This document shows, piece after piece, positions 4,357 to 20,756 of a stretch of 23,870 nucleotides of DNA. The stretch covers positions 1 to 23,870 of IMG/VR virus record IMGVR_UViG_3300020457_001285; one strand, written 5' to 3'. Position numbers and translations under genes: made by a program. The notes under the pieces are model-generated. The model saw only the letters and a list, made by a program, of their open reading frames with translations, made no database searches and had not been told where the DNA came from. The first letter of the stretch is position 1, and every line of letters begins with the position of its first letter. This DNA comes from a virus.

Positions 4357-4685
4357 GTTTCTTCGAGTCAGAACAAGTACAAGATAACCTTCGGGATATT
4401 TTCAGCACCTATAATAACCTAGCAGCAATGACTGCTAACCTATCCTCAATGCCTCCTGATGAAAGGATAAAACACATAGACAAGTGCAGAGTACTTGTAG
4501 ATAAACAGAAGACATTCTATGGTAGGTTATGCCTTGCTGCTACAGAAGGTGATAAAGATGCAGCAGACATGAAGACTAGAATCAATGCAATGTCTCAAGC
4601 ATTTGGGTTTAAAGATCTTGCAGCATGTATGGATGCCATGATGGTAACACTTGACAGAGCAGAATCTAAGGAGGGTTTCCGATGA
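4353..4685 (+). CDS. DUF1825-family protein (110 aa)
   Basis: The N-terminus 'FFESEQVQDNLRDIFSTYNNL' (positions 3-23) and a following helical region with 'MDAMMVTLDRAE' resemble the short DUF1825 proteins of cyanobacteria, which begin with 'FFDSEIVQEE...'. The protein is predicted helical and soluble and has no obvious catalytic motif. The function of DUF1825 is unknown to me, and phage copies in cyanomyoviruses suggest an ancient acquisition from the host. The start overlaps the upstream stop and the stop overlaps purC (ATGA), so the three genes are probably translated together. Confidence 0.68.
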   Translation: MSFFESEQVQDNLRDIFSTYNNLAAMTANLSSMPPDERIKHIDKCRVLVDKQKTFYGRLCLAATEGDKDAADMKTRINAMSQAFGFKDLAACMDAMMVTLDRAESKEGFR

Positions 4686-5371
4686 CTCTATTACATAAAG
4701 GTAAGGTCAAGTCTGTTTATAATGTTCTTGATGATGATGAGCAAGTCGTTATACAATATCATGATAAAGTTACTGCTGGTAATGGTAGGAAGGTAGACTT
4801 CCCTGAAGAGAAGGGACAGTTATGCTGTGAGATTTCTGAATGGTTCTTCAAATATTTTCAGGATAAATTTCTTGTTCATTATATTAGTTGCCCATCACCC
4901 ACTCATATGTTATGTAAAAAATTAAATATGATACCAGTGGAGGTTATCTGTAGAAACATAGCAGCAGGTTCTATTGTTAGAGACACTCCTCTACCAGAAG
5001 GAACTGTGTTCGATCCATGTTTAGTAGAGTTTAACTTAAAGAATGATGAGAAGGATGATCCACTACTAACTGATGATAGAGTTAGACTAATGGGTTTTGA
5101 TCCTCATACATTCAGACGTAGAGCATCCGAAATGAACTGGCATTTTAAACAGATCTTTGCTACAATGGATATAGATATTGTTGATTTCAAATTAGAGTAT
5201 GGATACGATAGCAACGGTGCTTTATACTTGGCTGATGAGATATCACCTGACAACATGCGACTCTGGAAAAGAGGCACGAAGGAACGTTTTGACAAGGATC
5301 TTTTCCGTAAAGGTGAAGGAAACATAGTCGAAGCGTACAAATATATACTACAACAGCTAAAAAAACTTTAA
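4682..5371 (+). CDS. purC: Phosphoribosylaminoimidazole-succinocarboxamide (SAICAR) synthetase
   Basis: Joins CAIR and aspartate with ATP to form SAICAR in de novo purine synthesis. The N-terminus 'LLHKGKVKSVYNV' is the nucleotide-binding start of PurC. 'VEVICRNIAAGSIV' (about residues 84-97) and the C-terminal 'DFKLEYG' with 'LADEISPDNMRLW' (about 170-200) are family signatures. The 229 residues match bacterial PurC of about 237, so it looks intact. Purine genes are known cyanophage auxiliary metabolic genes and would raise the nucleotide supply. It overlaps the DUF1825 gene by 4 bases and is followed 3 bases later by a small ORF. Confidence 0.95.
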   Translation: MTLLHKGKVKSVYNVLDDDEQVVIQYHDKVTAGNGRKVDFPEEKGQLCCEISEWFFKYFQDKFLVHYISCPSPTHMLCKKLNMIPVEVICRNIAAGSIVRDTPLPEGTVFDPCLVEFNLKNDEKDDPLLTDDRVRLMGFDPHTFRRRASEMNWHFKQIFATMDIDIVDFKLEYGYDSNGALYLADEISPDNMRLWKRGTKERFDKDLFRKGEGNIVEAYKYILQQLKKL

Positions 5372-8277: not shown

Positions 8278-8451
8278 ATGAAAGAACAGATGATTAAAGA
8301 CATCCAAGACTGGGAGAGAGAATACCTTGGTATGGATGCTGACATAACAGAGAGACAAATAGAAATCCTTAAGGGATCTGAAATAAAATCCCATGAAGGT
8401 ATGCTTTATGGTAGAATGTATGCAGACTGGAAACTGAGGAAGTATGGATGA
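8278..8451 (+). CDS. Small hypothetical protein (57 aa)
   Basis: ATG at 8278 to TGA at 8449-8451, which overlaps the halogenase start (ATGA at 8448). The product is charged and probably helical (MKEQMIKDIQDWEREYLGMD, and 'LYGRMYADWKLRKYG' at the end). It has no membrane segment or known motif. The 4-base overlap with the next gene makes it likely real and translationally coupled to the halogenase. No Shine-Dalgarno is obvious. Confidence 0.6.
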   Translation: MKEQMIKDIQDWEREYLGMDADITERQIEILKGSEIKSHEGMLYGRMYADWKLRKYG

Positions 8452-9815
8452 AGATTGTAATCGTTGGTGGTGGTACTGCTGGATGGTTGTCAGCATATAT
8501 GTTGACACGTTTGCAACCAAACCATTCTTATACTGTCATTGATGATTCAAAACATAATATTGTTGGTGTTGGAGAAAGTACGACAGGACATTTCAGAGAA
8601 GCAATCGAACTTGGTACAACTGAGTCAGAATTTATTAATGAAACTGATGCTACAGTTAAACTTGGTATTGAATTTAAAGATTGGAGAAAGGTAGGAGAAG
8701 AATTTTATAATCCTATTGAACCTTCATCTACTGCTACAGAATACTTTGATGCTGCAACATACTATGCAGTATATAAAGGACATCCTGCTGAAGTATCAAG
8801 TATTAATGGTGTGTGGCATAGGAATAAAAGATATGATAGAAAGTTTAATACACATGCGTATCACTTTGATACGTTTAAGTGTGCTCAGTTTTTAAAGAAA
8901 AGATCTGGTGCACGTCATCTTGATAAGAAAGTTGTTGACTGTAACTTAAATGAGACAGGATTTATAGAGTCTGTTGTCTGTGAAGATGGTAGTATAATAA
9001 AAGGAGATTTCTTTATAGATGCTAGTGGATTCTCTAGGGTATTGATTGGTAAACTATCTTCATGGAGATCGTTTCAAGATAATTTACCAGTCAATTCTGC
9101 TGTACCTTTTATAGAAGATAATGATGGTGGAGATAGTACCATTTGTACTGCACTATCTTCTGGATGGTTGTGGCAGATACCAACAGCCAAGAAGATGGGT
9201 TCGGGTTATGTATATTGTGATAAGTATATTACTGAAGACCAAGCCATAGATGAGGTACAAAAACACTTAGGAAGAACCATAACTCCTGGAGCAGCAATTA
9301 AGTTTGAGTCTGGTAGGTTTGATAATATATGGAGTAAGAATTGTCTTGCTGTAGGGTTAGCAGGATCATTCCTAGAACCATTACAGTCTACTAATATTCA
9401 TACTACTGTAATAGAAATCAGCAATTTCCACAGGAAGTATCTAAGAAATACCTTTGAAGACACCTATTCCAGAGCAAATGTTAAGAAATTCTGTAGTGAA
9501 ATAGGTATGATGGTAGATAATTTTAAAGATTTCATTAACCTACACTACTCTGGAGAGAGAAGAGACTCAAAATTCTGGAGGATGATCTATCAGAAGGAAC
9601 ATCTTACAGATTTCACAAGAAATATAATAGAACTTGCTAGACACAGAGGTATCTTTAGAGATGACTTCTTATATTATTATGGATGTACTGGTGTAGAACT
9701 ATGGATCTATACCCTCTTTGGTATGGGACACATACCTAAGAAGACCGTGCAAAAAATATTTAAAAAACCTATGCTACTTGACTATGCTAAGTCAAAATTT
9801 AAACTGTTGTCGTAG
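8448..9815 (+). CDS. prnA: Flavin-dependent tryptophan-halogenase-like protein
   Basis: A 455-residue member of the tryptophan halogenase (PrnA/RebH) superfamily. It has an N-terminal FAD-binding GGGTAGW (7-13), the 'GVGES' loop (40-44), K71 in 'DATVKLGIEFKDW' at the position of the catalytic lysine (PrnA K79), and the halogenase hallmark W-x-W-x-I-P (WLWQIP, 240-245). The block 'LEPLQSTNIH' at 309-318 corresponds to family 'LEPLESTG', so the residue matching PrnA E346 is Gln313. Such genes are common in cyanomyoviruses and their substrate is unknown. It is slightly shorter than PrnA (about 538), mainly in the C-terminal half. Its last 17 bases overlap the end of gp53 on the opposite strand. 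Confidence 0.85.
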   Translation: MKIVIVGGGTAGWLSAYMLTRLQPNHSYTVIDDSKHNIVGVGESTTGHFREAIELGTTESEFINETDATVKLGIEFKDWRKVGEEFYNPIEPSSTATEYFDAATYYAVYKGHPAEVSSINGVWHRNKRYDRKFNTHAYHFDTFKCAQFLKKRSGARHLDKKVVDCNLNETGFIESVVCEDGSIIKGDFFIDASGFSRVLIGKLSSWRSFQDNLPVNSAVPFIEDNDGGDSTICTALSSGWLWQIPTAKKMGSGYVYCDKYITEDQAIDEVQKHLGRTITPGAAIKFESGRFDNIWSKNCLAVGLAGSFLEPLQSTNIHTTVIEISNFHRKYLRNTFEDTYSRANVKKFCSEIGMMVDNFKDFINLHYSGERRDSKFWRMIYQKEHLTDFTRNIIELARHRGIFRDDFLYYYGCTGVELWIYTLFGMGHIPKKTVQKIFKKPMLLDYAKSKFKLLS

Positions 9816-13154: not shown

Positions 13155-13865
13155 ATGGCATTACCTAAATTAAACGCCCCTCGTTATAAAATGAAATTGC
13201 CGTCAGACGGCAGAGTTGTGAATTTTCGTCCATTTCTTGTAAAAGAGGAAAAAAGTCTTCTTATTGCAACTGAAACTGGCGATTCTTCTACCATGATTAA
13301 CGCTATTAAAGATATTATTAGAGGATGTACTGATATTAAAGATGTTGAAGAATTGGCAACATTTGATATTGAGTATGTTTTCCTTCAAGTGAGAACTAAG
13401 TCCGTTGGTGAAAGCGTTGATGTTTCTGTGGTTTGTCCCGATGATGAGGAAACAGAAGTTGAAGTGAATATTCCTTTAGAAGACATTAAGGTTCAAAAGA
13501 CCAAAGGTCATAAAAAGGAACTTAAGCTTGATGATGGAATAATGGTTACTATGAAGTATCCAAGTCTTGAAAATTTCGTTGAAATGAACTTTGCTGGTGA
13601 ACAACCAGGAGTTGATCAAGTTTTCAAAATGGCAGCAGGTTGTATCGAACAAATTGCTACTGAGGAAGAAGTACATGATTGCACAAGTCTTCCAGAAAGC
13701 GAAATGCTTGAATTTTTGGATCAATTAACATCTGCTCAATTTAAGGCAATTCAAGATTTCTTTGAAACTATGCCCAAATTGGCACATACGTTAAATGTGA
13801 AAAATCCTAAAACTGGGAAAACTGGTGAGGTGAAATTAGAAGGATTAGCGGCTTTTTTCGGTTAG
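13155..13865 (+). CDS. gp26: gp26-like baseplate hub subunit / tail assembly chaperone
   Basis: The start is the ATG at 13155 (MALPKLNAPRYKMKLPSDG). A TTG at 13146 in the same frame is less likely. The 236 residues match the gp26-like hub proteins of cyanomyoviruses: 'NFRPFLVKEEKSLLIATETGD' near the N-terminus, 'CTDIKDVEELATFDIEYVFLQVR' (about 55-77), an acidic middle with 'CPDDEETEVEV', and a helical end with 'QFKAIQDFFETMPKLAH'. T4 gp26 (208 residues) helps build the central hub. The last codons contain a -1 slippery site (13853-13859), so a longer form of 300 residues is also likely. It is the first gene of the hub operon behind a late promoter. Confidence 0.8.
   Translation: MALPKLNAPRYKMKLPSDGRVVNFRPFLVKEEKSLLIATETGDSSTMINAIKDIIRGCTDIKDVEELATFDIEYVFLQVRTKSVGESVDVSVVCPDDEETEVEVNIPLEDIKVQKTKGHKKELKLDDGIMVTMKYPSLENFVEMNFAGEQPGVDQVFKMAAGCIEQIATEEEVHDCTSLPESEMLEFLDQLTSAQFKAIQDFFETMPKLAHTLNVKNPKTGKTGEVKLEGLAAFFG
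13838..13859 (+). promoter_or_regulatory. Probable programmed -1 ribosomal frameshift site
   Basis: In the gp26 frame the bases read gcT TTT TTC ggt tag, a perfect X XXY YYZ heptamer at 13853-13859. SD-like AGAAGGA (13838-13844) ends 8 bases upstream, as in dnaX-type sites. Slippage gives TTT TTT CGG TTA and enters the -1 ORF that ends at 14056. A weak GGTTAG/CTAATC stem (13860-13865 with 13878-13883) lies behind it. Confidence 0.72.
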
Positions 13866-14056
13866 CCCTTCTTCACACTAATCTCCGTACTTATTATGAA
13901 ACCAATTTTGCTCTAATCCACCATCATAAGTGGAATATTGAGTATATTGACAATCTCATGCCTTGGGAAAAAGAACTCTATCTCAATTTATTGATGGAAT
14001 TCTTAAAAGAAGAAGAACGTAGAATGAAGGAGCAAGAAACTAAGACGAGTGGCTAA
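13859..14056 (+). CDS. -1 frameshift extension of gp26 (65 codons)
   Basis: Reading from CGG at 13859 gives 'RLALLHTNLRTYYETNFALI', then 'HHHKWNIEYIDNLMPWEKEL' and the coiled-coil-like 'YLNLLMEFLKEEERRMKEQ', with a stop at 14054-14056. The -1 frame has a stop at 13826-13828 and no ATG, GTG or TTG until 13958, although sequence before that codon looks coding. Access by frameshift from gp26 is therefore the simplest reading and gives a 300-residue fusion. Lambda-type tail chaperones make such a minor extended form in front of the tape-measure gene. The same place in T4 is held by gp51. The end overlaps the next GTG start by 8 bases. A separate protein starting at 13958 is the alternative. Confidence 0.7.
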   Translation, partial: RLALLHTNLRTYYETNFALIHHHKWNIEYIDNLMPWEKELYLNLLMEFLKEEERRMKEQETKTSG

Positions 14057-17000
14057 ACTAAGTGCATACAAGTTTATTAACCCACCTGGCAAGGACAGCG
14101 AAGCACCAATGTCGCAAAATGCTGGAAGGGCATCTTTATTAGCCACAAATCGTCTTGGAATTACTGTTACTGCCCTTGGTGCAACAGTAGGAGACTTACA
14201 AGCGATATACGCTGCAGGTTTGAAGAATGATAAACTGCAAGCAATCGCTGAACGTAAAAGAGCAAAGAGAGAAGCGGATAGAAAGAGAGAGGAAGAGATA
14301 GAGAATCAAAATCTTTTCCAGAAAGGTGATATTACTAATAAAATGGCCAAGAAAGGGCCAGATGATAAGACGAAGAAGGGTATTGATGGAATAATTAAGG
14401 CATTGGGACTGGATGGTCCTTTAATGGCAGTATTTGGATGGCTGGTCAAGCTAGGAACATGGATGTCCACTCTTGCCATTATGAAATGGGTGGCAGATCC
14501 GAGCAGTCAACCGCAATTAGAAGTTTTTATACACAAAATTACTGTAATCTGGAAGGCACTTAAAAAGGCATTTGGGTTTGTAATAGGAAAGGGCATACTG
14601 GATGGATTTGCCCAATTATCAGATCCAAATGGATCATTTGCTAGTAGAATAACTGGACTAGGTAAATTTGTCTTAGGGATAATAGGCTTAGGGGCACTTT
14701 TAAACCCATTTGGATTAATGGGATCAATATTGTCCATGTTGGACTTTGTTTGGGATAAAAAAGATCCTCTACAGAGACGTAATGATACTAAAGCAAATAA
14801 TAGAAAAAATCAAAAAACCAAACTAAAAAATAAAGTAAGGTCTAATAATAATCCTCTTTTAAAGAAGTATGGTAAGAATGGTGATAGATTATATCGACAA
14901 GCAATTAAGGATGGTGCAACCAGAGCAGAAGCACTAAACAAAGTACGGAGAGCAGCAAATAAAAACCCTGCTGCATTCAAACCACCCCCAAAAACGAGTG
15001 GATTATCTCCAAGAACTGCTCCTCCAGGAAGCGTCATGGGCAAGGGTCTACAACGATCCTTTGGTCGTGGTGCACTTAAGTTTTTAGGTAAAAATAATGT
15101 AAAATTACTTGGAAAAGCATTCCAGAACACGTTTGGTAGGATACCTGTTTTTGGTAGTATTCTAACTGCGATATTTTCTCTGTTACAGGGTGATCCTTGG
15201 GATAAAGTACTATTTAAAACTGCTGGTACTGCTATTGGTGGTGCATTAGGTTCATTTATACCTCTTCCTGGTCTTGGTACCTTATTGGGAATGAGTTTAG
15301 GTGAATATTTTGGTGAATTGTTGTGGATTGGATTTAAAGGTGGAGGCTGGGGTGAAGCTGGGCAGAAATTATTAAATGACCTAAAAGGTGTCTTTAATCA
15401 GCTTAAAAACGTCCTTGTATGGATCAGAGACGGGTGGACTAAATTTTATACGGGTATTCCTAAGTTCAAAATACCAGATTTTCCTGAAAAACCACCTGGG
15501 TGGTTAGCTAAGGTTTGGGGTTCTGGTAAGATTTGGGGAGCCATGAAGTTAATGATGAAGGGCATGTTGGGTCCTTTATCATTATTAATGGGTAAGGAAA
15601 TACCCAATATTGGCTGGATGCTCAATTTAACTGGAAACACGTTCCCGTTACTACACAAAGCTTTCTTTAAAGATTCTTGGCAAGCATCACAACCTACTAC
15701 TCAAGAAGGTACTCTAACAGGTGGTGATGCACTTGGTAGTCAAATTGAGGGTGAACAGAAAGGTCAAAAAGGTAGTTCTGTTGTTGGTGCTTCTCAAGGA
15801 TCGATAGAACTTGCCAAGATACAAGGAAGATTTGTAGTTGGTGAAATGATTCAAGGTCTCAGGTCTGGGGCTGAGGCAGTAATTAAGAAACTTAATATTG
15901 ATTTTAAAGAAACTCTTGGAAAAGGTAAATCAAAAACTACTGTTGGTAAGAATCAGTTTACAGTAGGAGGTAAAACACATACAAAACCTAAGAGAAGTGA
16001 TTTTGCTAACACTAGAGCTGGTGCTAAGGCATTTGAGAAAGCAAATAAGAAATATAAGGATAGATTAAAACTTGCAAAAGAAAATCCTGGTGTTTTATTT
16101 GGCGATGAGTTAATAGAAAAATATGGAATGAGTGAAGAGGCGAAAATTGATCTTATGGATCAAAACTCACCTTATAATATAGGATACACTCCTTCCTCTA
16201 CTGCTAACAGAAAGAAGAATAGGCATGGTAACGTTAATATAAGAGAAGATCATGCTTCAAAACCAGAATATCAGAATCAGTGGTGGGACTTCTTAGACTT
16301 ATTTGAAAATAAGAAGGTTACTCCTAAAGGTACATCTGGTATAGGACCATTGGCACCTGGTCATGGTGCTGATACTTATGGAAAGCATCTCGAAAAAGAA
16401 GCGAATAAGAAGAAGACTACTTGGTGGAATCCATTTAGTTGGGGTGCTAAAAAACCAATTAATACGAAGAGAAAGAAAGAATTTGGTGGAAGGATACCAT
16501 CAAGACTACAAAGTCCTGATAAACAATTCATCTTTGGTAAAATTTTTAAAGGTATTGGTAAGGCAGTTAGTGGTGTAGTTAATGGTGTTAGTAAGGCAGT
16601 ATCTGGTGTTGTAAACGGAGTTTCTAGTCTAGTAAGTGGTGTGATGGAATCACCGCTTGGTAGCATATTAATGACAGTTGCACCAATAGTATTCCCTGCT
16701 GCTGCACCGTTTATACATGCTGCAAGAGGTATATACTCGTTATCTCAAGGTGATATATTAGGTGCTATAAGTTCTGGTATTGGTGCTGCACATGGTTTCT
16801 CTACTCATTTTGGTAGTGGTGCATTAGCAGCAAGTATTGATAAATTCCAAGCTTCAGGATTTGGTAAAGTTGCTATGGGATTCCTTGATGGAGGAGTCTC
16901 AGGAGCATTATCTTCAGGATTAGGATTATTACAAGGTAAGTTACCATCTGGATTAACCAAGTTCTTGGGTAATATTGGTGATGTGATGAACAAGGTTCCA

Positions 17001-17468
17001 GGATTAGGTAATATTGTTTCAGCAATACCAGGTATAGGAAATATACCAGGATTGTCTTCATTATTTGGATTGGGTGATGGTGGTATGCCTGGAGGGACAT
17101 TTAGTCCTATGGGATTATTTGGTAGTATTGCCAATGAGATGGGATTTGGTGGCATATTTAAGGCAATCACAGGCATGGTGTCTGGAGGTGGGCCTATGGC
17201 AATGATGCAAGGTCTACAAGAACTTGCTCCAGAATTGGGTGTTGATCCAAGATTATTAGGTCAATTCCCATCACAAATAAAATCGATGGATAGTACTAGA
17301 AGTGGTTCAACTTCAGAAATGTCTCAGCAGTATGCTTTACAGACTAAGATGGAGTTTATTCCAGTACCTATGATTGCTAATAAGTTAGTACCAATAGCTA
17401 AGCCTGTCCCAATAAATAATGTTGTGAGAGTACCAGTTAGGCAACCCTGTCAGAGGTGTGGTAAATAA
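14049..17468 (+). CDS. Giant tape-measure-like tail protein 1 (1139 aa)
   Basis: The start is GTG at 14049 (MAKLSAYKF), with AAGGAG about 17 bases upstream. Residues 34-53 ('NRLGITVTALGATVGDLQAI') and 144-221 ('IMKWVADPSSQ...' to 'GALLNPF') are paralogous to the next protein. A charged coiled-coil segment (59-90) separates them. The rest is rich in Gly, hydrophobic and amphipathic segments. It includes 'FQNTFGRIPVFGSILTAIFSLLQGDPWDK' (about 357-385), two copies of KAVSGVVNGVS (838-859) and a 'PGLGNIVSAIPGIGNIPGL' stretch. It ends PCQRCGK with a C-x2-C pair. Large size, membrane-like helices and position after the frameshift gene suggest a tape measure or tail-interior protein. T4 gp29 is half this size, and I see no direct match to it. 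Confidence 0.65.
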   Translation: MAKLSAYKFINPPGKDSEAPMSQNAGRASLLATNRLGITVTALGATVGDLQAIYAAGLKNDKLQAIAERKRAKREADRKREEEIENQNLFQKGDITNKMAKKGPDDKTKKGIDGIIKALGLDGPLMAVFGWLVKLGTWMSTLAIMKWVADPSSQPQLEVFIHKITVIWKALKKAFGFVIGKGILDGFAQLSDPNGSFASRITGLGKFVLGIIGLGALLNPFGLMGSILSMLDFVWDKKDPLQRRNDTKANNRKNQKTKLKNKVRSNNNPLLKKYGKNGDRLYRQAIKDGATRAEALNKVRRAANKNPAAFKPPPKTSGLSPRTAPPGSVMGKGLQRSFGRGALKFLGKNNVKLLGKAFQNTFGRIPVFGSILTAIFSLLQGDPWDKVLFKTAGTAIGGALGSFIPLPGLGTLLGMSLGEYFGELLWIGFKGGGWGEAGQKLLNDLKGVFNQLKNVLVWIRDGWTKFYTGIPKFKIPDFPEKPPGWLAKVWGSGKIWGAMKLMMKGMLGPLSLLMGKEIPNIGWMLNLTGNTFPLLHKAFFKDSWQASQPTTQEGTLTGGDALGSQIEGEQKGQKGSSVVGASQGSIELAKIQGRFVVGEMIQGLRSGAEAVIKKLNIDFKETLGKGKSKTTVGKNQFTVGGKTHTKPKRSDFANTRAGAKAFEKANKKYKDRLKLAKENPGVLFGDELIEKYGMSEEAKIDLMDQNSPYNIGYTPSSTANRKKNRHGNVNIREDHASKPEYQNQWWDFLDLFENKKVTPKGTSGIGPLAPGHGADTYGKHLEKEANKKKTTWWNPFSWGAKKPINTKRKKEFGGRIPSRLQSPDKQFIFGKIFKGIGKAVSGVVNGVSKAVSGVVNGVSSLVSGVMESPLGSILMTVAPIVFPAAAPFIHAARGIYSLSQGDILGAISSGIGAAHGFSTHFGSGALAASIDKFQASGFGKVAMGFLDGGVSGALSSGLGLLQGKLPSGLTKFLGNIGDVMNKVPGLGNIVSAIPGIGNIPGLSSLFGLGDGGMPGGTFSPMGLFGSIANEMGFGGIFKAITGMVSGGGPMAMMQGLQELAPELGVDPRLLGQFPSQIKSMDSTRSGSTSEMSQQYALQTKMEFIPVPMIANKLVPIAKPVPINNVVRVPVRQPCQRCGK
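16560..16625 (+). repeat. Tandem repeat coding for KAVSGVVNGVS twice
   Basis: Two adjacent 33-base units encode the same 11 residues at 838-859 of the first giant protein, with synonymous differences between the copies. A partial third unit ('SSLVSGV') follows. The period of 11 fits a helical repeat. Confidence 0.7.
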
Positions 17469-20400
17469 ATGGCAATAAAGAAGAACAGAAAATTAAATCT
17501 CTATAAGATGGTATCTGTTACAGGTGTCGCAGCTGCTGGTGGAAATAATAGGCAAACTCAATTACAAGTAGCACAGGTAGGTGCACTCAATCGTTTAGGT
17601 ACTACTGTTAATAGTATTGCTGGAATCGTTTCTGATATTAAAAAGATTGAACTTAAACGTCTTGCGGATGCTCAGAAAAGGATAAAGTTCACTCCAAGAT
17701 ATACTAAACCACAGAAGGTAGAATCAGCAAAGTTTGCTAAGACTTTTATAGGTAGGACTGCTCCTAAATTCTGGGAAGGTTTATTGAAGATGCTTTCTGG
17801 TCTCTTTAAGTTGTTGGTACTGAGACCAATATTAAAATGGCTTTCTGATCCTAATAATCAAGAAGCAGTTGCAAATACACTTAGGACGCTTGATAAGATA
17901 TTTACGTGGGTAGCAAAATTCCTGACAAAGAATCTTACAGGAGCTGTAGATGGATTATATGATCTCTTAAGAGAAGATGCCTCGTGGGCTCAACGAATAG
18001 GTGGGTTTATGAAAACCTTCGTTGGGTTGGGAGCAATATTCTTAGGATTGAGATGGTTAAATCCACTTAGAGTTGGTAGGACTTTAAAGGATTTTAAATG
18101 GATCTTATCTACCTTTTATAATTCATTAACTAGATTTAAAACAGGTTTAGCAAAACGCAGAGGAATGCGTTGGATGGGTGGTAAGTGGGGTAAAGCACTC
18201 CAAGTTACTACAATGGTGGCAGGTACTGCCTATGTTGCTAAAAAAGGCATGGATTATGCTGCTGATGTAGGAGATGATCCTGATCCATTTGGCAGAACAG
18301 GTACTAGAGATGATGGATCTTCATATGAATATGGTGGAAATGTTTTAAAACTTCTTCCTCAGAGAGCAACAGGTGGATGGATTAATGGTCCTAATAGTGG
18401 ATATCCTGTTTCTTTAGGATCACAAAGTGGTGCTTCCCCTGACTTTGTTGGTCATGGATTGGAATATGTTGCAAGAAAAAATACTGGTGAAAACTTTGTA
18501 ATACCTGTTGATAATGCTGCTACTCGCAGAAATCCTGGATTGATGGAAGCAAACATGCGTGTTGCTTCTGCTAATGGATTTGACATTAGAATGCCAAGAT
18601 TGAATAATCAAAGTAAGCATTTTGGATTAGGAAGTTGGTTAAACAATAAAGGTTGGGGTGGTAATAAATCAAGTGGTAGTAAATCAGGTGGAGGATTTAG
18701 TTGGGGTAATTTATTTGGTGGTGGTAAGAAGAATAAAGGTAGTAGTGGTGGATTATTAGGTACTATTAGCAGTAATGTTAATGATATGATCAATACACCA
18801 AAGCAAACTGGTAATTGGTTTAGTAACTTTGGTCAAAAATTCACTGCTGGAAATAAAGGTTGGCAAGGTAGATTAGGAGATTGGTTTAAAGGTGGTGGTG
18901 CTGGACAGATAGGTGCAGCATTTGGTAATGAAGGAGCTGGTAATGCTATTGGTGGTCTCTTTAACATCTTTAGTGGTGGTGGTAGTGGTAAAGATGGTAA
19001 GGCTACTGCTTGGGATATAATAAAAGGTATTGGTGGTGTTGCTACCAACTTCATGAAACCAGGAAGCAAAGCTCAAGGGTGGCTTAGCACTGGTTTAGGT
19101 ATTGGTGATATCCTTAGAGGTGAAGGAACATTTGGTCAAAAACTAGGTCAAGTCTTTGGTAGTTACGGTAATAATATTGCCCAGTTAATTGGTGGTAAGG
19201 CTGGAAGCCTCATGCAAAATGCTATGGGGATCTACAACAACCTTACAGGTGGTGGTGGACTTCAAGGCATGGTGGATAATCTCCAAAGTGCTATGGAAGG
19301 AGGTGTCTCTGGATTAGTACATTCTGCTGGTGGTGCACCTATTAATCCTGAAACACTCGGTATTACTGCTAAAGGTGGTGGTATTGAAGCAGCGAAGAGA
19401 GTTGGTAAGCAAATGCTTAGCCAAGGGTTTACTATTGAGGATAACCCATTCTTCCATGCTAATAAGTGGAATAAGATGAAAGCTAATACTGAAGGATTCA
19501 ACCCTAGAGGTGATTCTCCTGTAAATGCTGGTGGATTACATGCTTTAGGTCTTGGATTAAATATTGCTGATTATAGACCAGGACAAAAAGGTCAAAGGTT
19601 ACATTCACTTGCTGATACTTTACACAGTCAGGTAGGAGCATATAAGATTACTGAAATCGTTCATGATAAATGGGGTGCTTGGGCGGTCAATCAAGAACGT
19701 AAGCAAGGACCAAATAATTATGGTTATCCTGGACATGTTCATATAGGTATTGCTGGTAAAGAAGAAAAGCAAGGAGGCGGTAAAAATTCTTCTATCCAAG
19801 CACCTGGCAATATGCAGATGATTGCTCAACAGATTCATAATGATACTCAGGGTGGAAGTTTGTTAGAGCAGTCTTTACATGCAAGATCTTGGATGAATAA
19901 AGCAAGTTTGATGGAACAGTTTGGTAATTCTAGTGGTAAGTTTGGTAATGCAAGTACTTGGATGGATTTAATTGATAGTACTAATATATTCAAGAAAGAC
20001 ATGTCTAGTGCAGATTCAGCACTATCATGGAAGGCAATATTAAATGCACAGAAGGACGGATATTTACAAACTGCTTTATCCAATCAAGGATATGATGATG
20101 CAGCAATTAACGTCTTGACGAATGCTACTACCTTTAAAAAGACTTCTAAGGGTGGTAAAGATAGAACTGCATATCAAGTTAGCTTTAAGGATATGTTTGC
20201 CAGCACTGATGGTAATAAGGAAGCTAATGCAAAAATTTCTTCAGAAGGTCTTGACGGTCAATCACCCAATATGACTGATAAGAAGAAGCAGGTTCATAAA
20301 GCACCTGGTTTATTGAGTGGGTTTAGTCAGGGTAGTACAATGTTCCCTTCTCAGATGCCACAGGGTAAACAGGGAAGTAATGTTAGTAATGCTAAGTCTG

Positions 20401-20756
20401 CCTATAGTCCAGTAAAATCTGGAAGAAATGATACTGCTAGTAACACAAGTGCTGGTAGTAATGTTAATTCTATGACCAACAAAGGATCAACAAGTGGTAG
20501 AGATAAAGATGATAAATCTACCATGAGGATGCAGCAGAAGATTCTTAGAGAGAAAGAATTCTTATCCTTCCGTTTGTCTGAGAAAATAAATAGCTCAGTG
20601 CAAGCTACTATGGCATCAATCGAAGCAAATAATGCTTCAGTACGTTCTGAAGTAGCAGCAGCACAATCTTTTGTTACTAAGGCTGTTGCAGAGTCCAAGC
20701 GTGCTGGTGTTGGTAATAACTTATCTTATGCAGCGAGTAGGGCAGGTACTGGTTAA
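17469..20756 (+). CDS. Giant tape-measure-like tail protein 2 with LAS/M15-type peptidase-like domain (1095 aa)
   Basis: It starts 1 base after the preceding stop. Residues 41-60 and 121-200 are paralogous to the first giant protein. A 'TGGWINGPNSGYPVSLG' stretch (about 301-317) and 'ENFVIPVDNAATRRNPGLM' (about 340-358) are of the kind found near the C-terminal part of phage tape measures. Gly-rich linkers follow (390-620). At 684-760 'GGLHALGLGLNIADY' (H691, N698) and 'GHVHIGI' (H756, H758) resemble the zinc motifs H-x6-D and H-x-H of LAS/M15 peptidases, with Asn at the usual Asp. Similar domains sit in tape measures and cut peptidoglycan on entry. The last 80 residues form a long helix. The stop overlaps gp27 (TAATG). 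Confidence 0.68.
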   Translation: MAIKKNRKLNLYKMVSVTGVAAAGGNNRQTQLQVAQVGALNRLGTTVNSIAGIVSDIKKIELKRLADAQKRIKFTPRYTKPQKVESAKFAKTFIGRTAPKFWEGLLKMLSGLFKLLVLRPILKWLSDPNNQEAVANTLRTLDKIFTWVAKFLTKNLTGAVDGLYDLLREDASWAQRIGGFMKTFVGLGAIFLGLRWLNPLRVGRTLKDFKWILSTFYNSLTRFKTGLAKRRGMRWMGGKWGKALQVTTMVAGTAYVAKKGMDYAADVGDDPDPFGRTGTRDDGSSYEYGGNVLKLLPQRATGGWINGPNSGYPVSLGSQSGASPDFVGHGLEYVARKNTGENFVIPVDNAATRRNPGLMEANMRVASANGFDIRMPRLNNQSKHFGLGSWLNNKGWGGNKSSGSKSGGGFSWGNLFGGGKKNKGSSGGLLGTISSNVNDMINTPKQTGNWFSNFGQKFTAGNKGWQGRLGDWFKGGGAGQIGAAFGNEGAGNAIGGLFNIFSGGGSGKDGKATAWDIIKGIGGVATNFMKPGSKAQGWLSTGLGIGDILRGEGTFGQKLGQVFGSYGNNIAQLIGGKAGSLMQNAMGIYNNLTGGGGLQGMVDNLQSAMEGGVSGLVHSAGGAPINPETLGITAKGGGIEAAKRVGKQMLSQGFTIEDNPFFHANKWNKMKANTEGFNPRGDSPVNAGGLHALGLGLNIADYRPGQKGQRLHSLADTLHSQVGAYKITEIVHDKWGAWAVNQERKQGPNNYGYPGHVHIGIAGKEEKQGGGKNSSIQAPGNMQMIAQQIHNDTQGGSLLEQSLHARSWMNKASLMEQFGNSSGKFGNASTWMDLIDSTNIFKKDMSSADSALSWKAILNAQKDGYLQTALSNQGYDDAAINVLTNATTFKKTSKGGKDRTAYQVSFKDMFASTDGNKEANAKISSEGLDGQSPNMTDKKKQVHKAPGLLSGFSQGSTMFPSQMPQGKQGSNVSNAKSAYSPVKSGRNDTASNTSAGSNVNSMTNKGSTSGRDKDDKSTMRMQQKILREKEFLSFRLSEKINSSVQATMASIEANNASVRSEVAAAQSFVTKAVAESKRAGVGNNLSYAASRAGTG

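Follow-up and report, generated by a model that had tools for sequence, protein, structure and literature searches.

The window analyzed here is the whole 23,870-base stretch of a virus record from a T4-like marine cyanophage. ORFs at 323–958, 949–1653, 1884–2657, 4682–5371 and 8448–9815 look like, and are presumably, thyX, heme oxygenase, phoH, purC and a tryptophan-halogenase-like flavoprotein gene, all of which are often seen in cyanophages. On the plus strand, gp26 is encoded at 13155–13865, with an ATG at 13155, a final sense codon at 13860–13862 and a TAG at 13863–13865. Its 236-aa zero-frame product (TAC-N) matches PF12322 (T4_baseplate, E 1.8e-76) and phrog_150 (baseplate hub, E 1.3e-86). 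The 3’ end of the gene reads GCT TTT TTC GGT TAG, in which TTC is the second codon ahead of the stop. A candidate slippery heptamer, T TTT TTC, lies on the plus strand at 13853–13859 and is phased X XXY YYZ in the gp26 frame (T13853, TTT, TTC). An SD-like AGAAGGA, a putative −1 frameshift stimulator, is located 8 nt ahead of the heptamer at 13838–13844 (plus strand). A stop at 13826–13828 bounds the −1 frame on its 5’ side, and from 13829 this frame stays open to 14053. As a fusion it would contribute a 65-aa, gp51-type C-terminal domain (13859–14056, plus strand, including the TAA at 14054–14056), yielding a predicted product of 300 aa as compared to 236 aa for gp26. The first ATG in this frame, at 13958–13960 (plus strand), falls within the conserved domain (MPWEKE) and is preceded by no ATG, GTG or TTG. 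The first-pass annotation had described the heptamer, AGAAGGA and the −1 frame, and the position of the heptamer two codons ahead of the stop (exact to the base), the 8-nt spacing of AGAAGGA, the lack of a start codon until 13958 and both protein lengths were all recovered from the window sequence.

Related loci were collected to compare the junction between gp26 and the −1 frame. The collection comprised 283 loci and the window. The gp26 match reached the C-terminus in 280, excluding L095 (T4), L200, L201 and L221, and 279 of these contained a gp26 stop, giving 223 distinct junctions. The codon-usage analysis of the heptamer, the anti-SD analysis and the Glu-Gly analysis used the 221 heptamer-bearing junctions, not all 223. 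A set of 38 representatives was derived from 94 junctions (L075 has no gp26 stop) by dropping ten distant loci (L001, L086–L094) together with L049 and L066, in which the contig ends within the extension. From the remaining 82, near-duplicates (95% ungapped identity) were then removed. Loci L295–L302 lie outside the 223, and their junction sequences were inspected separately. By tblastn, the −1 extension has matches in 524 phage records, 482 of which cover at least 80% of it.

Conservation of the heptamer across relatives had been set as a check on the proposed frameshift, and an in-phase T TTT TTN was present at the gp26 end in 221 of 223 distinct junctions. The TTT of the heptamer lies two or three codons ahead of the gp26 stop, and the last base of the heptamer is C in 169 junctions, T in 30, A in 20 and G in 2, all of which retain the X XXY YYZ pattern. 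With relatedness ignored, the T TTT TTN form would be expected in approximately 80 of the 221 given the encoded amino acids and the codon usage of each gene, and it occurs in 11 of 762 other F-F/F-L dipeptides of the same genes, counts that likewise ignore relatedness. A control on the same tree is provided by the 224 codon columns of the 38 representatives. The third base never varies in only five of these columns, three of which are the heptamer codons (38/38 each). This holds for the first heptamer codon as well, although it encodes Ser in some representatives and Ala in others. TTC is the only codon used for the last Phe of the heptamer, while TTT and TTC both occur in eight of the nine other conserved Phe columns. 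By these comparisons, the candidate slippery heptamer at the gp26 end is conserved far beyond chance.

The −1 frame ahead of 13958 was assessed for coding selection. The 33 codons between the slip site and 13958 are ungapped and free of stops in the −1 frame in 38/38 representatives, while the other two frames of the same stretch contain stops in 38/38 (the zero-frame count includes gp26’s own stop). Across 19 disjoint pairs of the representatives, dN/dS in the −1 frame was 0.139, and it was 0.126 for the part beyond the gp26 stop. The same stretch read in the other frames gave 1.118 and 2.737. A signal of the third-position-excess type was also seen in the changes among the 38 representatives, and all 212 untruncated −1 frames extend 150–209 nt beyond the gp26 stop. 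Purifying selection in the −1 frame before 13958, the second check on the proposal, is thus borne out. A decayed or mis-sequenced gene, in which a single-base error has split one ORF, would look alike if the error were one base in a homopolymer. However, the split recurs in 223 distinct junctions, which come from many different assemblies and isolates, and dN/dS in the representatives is 0.14; we consider this explanation improbable to the point of being negligible.

The ATG at 13958 is unlikely to be a real start, since the 33 residues ahead of it are under purifying selection. This bears on how the C-terminal domain is annotated in databases, as a separate short gp51 that is reinitiated, or started independently, downstream of the gp26 stop. 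In the S-RIM2 and S-P4 annotations, for example, a 45-aa gp51 starts 51 nt beyond the gp26 end. In 100 of 223 junctions, the gp26 stop has an ATG, GTG or TTG of the −1 frame no more than 8 nt away, so reinitiation could contribute at those junctions. In the window, however, a start at 13958 would lose the 33 selected residues, and the heptamer and the spacing of the SD-like element are fixed relative to the gp26 frame. The window is one of eight junctions in which the first −1 frame start lies more than 60 nt from the gp26 stop. Similarly, Aeromonas phage avDM6 (Straboviridae) carries TTTTTTC and has no −1 frame start until +89. A separate gp51 is accordingly an unlikely account of the C-terminal domain, and a frameshift at the end of gp26 is the preferred one. 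Because the −1 frame before 13958 is under selection, an annotated gp51 that begins 51 nt past gp26 would cut off conserved protein.

Pairing with the anti-SD sequence was calculated upstream of the heptamer in the 221 junctions. The duplex energy peaks at spacers of 7–8 nt, with means of −6.7 and −6.5 kcal/mol, and −4 kcal/mol is reached at spacers of 6–14 nt in 94.6% of junctions as compared to 15.2% of control stretches. A Glu-Gly dipeptide is encoded upstream of the heptamer in 197 of the 221 (the other 24 were left out of the codon tests), and this dipeptide accounts for part of the predicted pairing signal. Codon choice within it is nevertheless skewed. With relatedness ignored, Glu is encoded by GAG in 126 of 197 junction Glu-Gly pairs versus 1351 of 4786 elsewhere, and Gly by GGA or GGG in 144 of 197 versus 504 of 1348 elsewhere. 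The two codons are also coupled, with GGA or GGG following GAA in 62 of 71 cases and GAG in 82 of 126 (p 0.0007, relatedness again ignored). These patterns indicate an SD-like element that is held at a fixed spacing and would be selected beyond the requirements of the amino acids. In the window, an anti-SD match at spacer 18–19 is stronger than that of AGAAGGA (−9.9 vs −6.0 kcal/mol), and the acting stimulator is putatively either of the two. This stronger match lies at approximately 13826–13835, and the junction mean at spacer 18–19 is only about −1.3 kcal/mol.

The T run might also cause RNA polymerase to slip, such that some mRNAs carry the shift, and seven T are present in 30 of 221 junctions. 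However, 169 of 221 heptamers end in C, and polymerase slippage gives no role to an SD-like element held at a fixed spacing. A run of six T is short for slippage during transcription. We regard this origin of the shift as very unlikely compared to slippage by the ribosome. Downstream of the heptamer, RNA stability shows a weak excess in the 38 representatives (mean z −1.53 at offset 5 over 50 nt, vs −0.37 in controls). No common downstream stem was apparent by eye in 12 folds of representatives, and no Rfam family reached the gathering threshold in the window. Given this slight gain in stability and no stem in common, a downstream stimulatory RNA structure is not claimed. In E. coli dnaX, an internal SD lies approximately 10 nt upstream of the −1 heptamer A AAA AAG, and a strong stem-loop follows. 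The window shares with dnaX an SD-type element upstream of a candidate −1 heptamer, but differs in its T TTT TTC heptamer and in that no conserved stem was found.

For the −1 extension, the profile match is phrog_634 (gp51, labelled ‘baseplate hub assembly catalyst’), with an E-value of 1.5e-29. In the case of T4, gp51 (249 aa) aligns to residues 12–280 of the predicted fusion, across the frameshift junction, with an E-value of 1e-7 and 23% identity. Residues 1–201 of T4 gp51 match PF12322 over its full length (1–219/219), and the C-terminal part is left over. By these profile matches and alignments, gp26 and its predicted extension belong to the T4 gp26/gp51 family (PF12322, phrog_150/634). 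T4 gp26 matches PF12322 as well and ends in GAG TTC TTT GAG TTA CTA TAA, without the heptamer. A single uninterrupted ORF encodes gp51 in T4 and in nine of ten related contigs; in the exception, L293, a broken frame lies within the gp51 stretch that was translated. Because T4 gp26 and gp51 share PF12322, gp51 is uninterrupted and gp26 has no heptamer, T4 encodes the short and long forms separately, whereas cyanophages would produce the long form by frameshifting. This agrees with a statement in the text available from PMC10885494, citing Vladimirov et al. 2022, that some T4-like phages replace frameshifting by two genes, a short one and a long fused one. It also weighs against a separate short gp51, as the T4 counterpart is one fused protein.

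The first-pass annotation had placed the extension where T4 has gp51. Genes 26 and 51 are adjacent in T4 but divergent, and T4 gp51 is a whole two-domain protein rather than the extension alone. The likeness to T4 is therefore one of family (PF12322) and of colinearity between the cyanophage fusion and T4 gp51; T4 differs in having two divergent genes and a gp26 end without a heptamer. T4 gp26 and gp51 are described as hub assembly chaperones in the part of PMC3004832 that was available. Cyanophage gp51 is given as only ~20% of the length of other gp51 proteins in the accessible portion of PMC3037559, which would be explained if the annotated cyanophage gp51 is the frameshifted end of gp26. 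By this comparison, the cyanophage “short gp51” is not truncated but is the predicted frameshifted end of gp26.

The fold of gp26 and the large ORFs that follow it were also considered. An AlphaFold2 model of gp26 was built from 76 sequences and has a mean pLDDT of 87.7. Among 998 chains compared by VIA, the top match to the N-domain model was 2ob9, the HK97 tail assembly chaperone (rmsd 4.6, 83 aligned), at a Z of 6.9, which is below the informative value of 8, under which a match may reflect only a common arrangement. The runners-up, 3klu and 3fgx, which we take to be phage tail chaperone relatives, both scored 6.0, and the next row scored 4.0; the top three matches all lie within gp26 residues 1–93. 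Foldseek gave a weak match of the gp26 model to 2ob9 (probability 0.60, E ~1.1), and when solved structures were searched by sequence, using profiles of gp26 and of the extension, nothing fell below an E of 0.13. The model lends moderate support to a tail assembly chaperone fold for gp26. The next ORF (14049–17468, plus strand, GTG start, 1139 aa) overlaps the −1 ORF end by 8 nt and matches phrog_790 (E 9.8e-121). It had been proposed as a giant tape-measure-like gene. No tape-measure family match was obtained in Pfam-type and PHROG profile searches, and the product would be tape-measure-like only by its position, its size and its several hydrophobic segments, as found in tape measures. The PHROG label of phrog_790, ‘endolysin’, looks doubtful for this ORF. 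The tandem giant ORFs at 14049–17468 and 17469–20756 have common N-terminal family matches (phrog_790, phrog_17500).

The frameshift between lambda gpG and gpGT has counterparts in P2 and HK97. According to PMC5009743, G coats the tape measure and the T part binds the tube protein in lambda, and long-tailed phages ‘except T4’ widely conserve the G-T frameshift. As in the lambda system (PMC5009743), the window combines a predicted −1 slip close to the 3’ end of a probable chaperone gene, a short extension that would be made only in fused form and a very large gene next in order. It differs in the T TTT TTC heptamer with an upstream SD-like element, in the 236-aa N part and in its occurrence in a T4-like phage. 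The Vandenendeviridae and Andersonviridae (phage Adele) share a poly-T slip and a −1 extension that is routinely annotated as a separate ORF, but have the motif GTTTTT and belong to other phage families, as given in the available part of PMC12846349.

A tail-chaperone-type −1 frameshift at the gp26 end, as first suggested, is supported by the conservation of the heptamer, the selection on the −1 frame and the alignment with gp51. Gene 26 of the window is very probably a lambda G/GT-type tail assembly chaperone gene that encodes gp26 and a −1 fusion. From sequence comparison we infer that slippage occurs, its rate, which product is the minor one and the chaperone function. The majority of ribosomes would stop at 13863 and produce gp26. 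A minority would pause at T TTT TTC, assisted by base-pairing between AGAAGGA and the 3’ end of the 16S rRNA, and two tRNA-Phe would re-pair one base back in a tandem slip. The ribosome would then continue in the −1 frame to 14053, producing the 300-aa gp26-gp51C fusion (TAC-NC). By analogy to lambda, gp26 may coat the tape measure protein, and the C-domain of the fusion may recruit tail tube or hub subunits.

Vladimirov et al. 2022 (Virology) reportedly deals with the tail chaperones of T4-like phages and is cited for poly-T sites in these phages. The first-pass annotation had considered the frameshift not described for T4-type cyanophages. No report of a cyanophage gp26 frameshift was found among the literature matches listed, which cover few subscription papers, but the claim is doubtful in view of what is cited from Vladimirov et al. 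2022. The kind of frameshift, that of the G/GT class, is known, and the cyanophage case may already be included in that study. Among the records of 22 relatives besides T4, one is unannotated. None of the other 21 has a joined CDS; the C-domain is a separate ORF in 13 and unlisted in eight. Annotation of a conserved gene is thereby affected in several hundred public records, given that 524 match the extension.

The heptamer is absent, with the −1 frame C-domain kept, in two of the 223 distinct junctions, one from the Vibrio D504 group and one from the Ackermannviridae, both distant from the window in that their gp26 is ~23–26% identical to its own. In the Vibrio D504 group (L092, L299 and L300, which are D504, K469 and K393), 3/3 records have an ATG that overlaps the gp26 stop, and the heptamer site in them reads CTT TTC or CTT TTT. 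This arrangement suggests stop-start reinitiation for the C-domain of this group and is consistent with a separate gp51 there. In the Ackermannviridae (L001, L295, L296, L297 and L298), the gp26 end is ATT TTC ATT TAA TTT TTG, identical in 5/5 and without a canonical heptamer, and the C-domain is unannotated in all four annotated records. A gp51-like C-domain is seen in the −1 frame in both heptamer-less groups, by alignment and inspection. Relatives that lack the slippery run and keep the downstream ORF with its own start would argue against frameshifting; 221 of 223 junctions retain the heptamer, but the Vibrio D504 group fits that pattern. A CxxC motif, zinc-ribbon-like, occurs near the gp26 C-terminus in eight of ten distant proteins (L087, L089–L094 and L001), and gp26 of the window is without it.

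We lean toward the reading that one two-form chaperone has been kept across T4-related phages while the route to the long form varies among four routes. These would be frameshifting at T TTT TTN in cyanophages, methylophage Melnitz, rhizobiophages and some Straboviridae (avDM6, Vibrio phage 1.081.O); possible reinitiation in the Vibrio D504 group; a non-canonical site in the Ackermannviridae; and a separate full-length gene 51 in T4. The poorly understood hub proteins of T4, gp26 and gp51, would thereby be tied to the tail assembly chaperones of lambda. If this reading is true, the essential ‘baseplate hub assembly catalyst’ of T4, gp51, would represent a copy that has escaped an ancestral frameshift.
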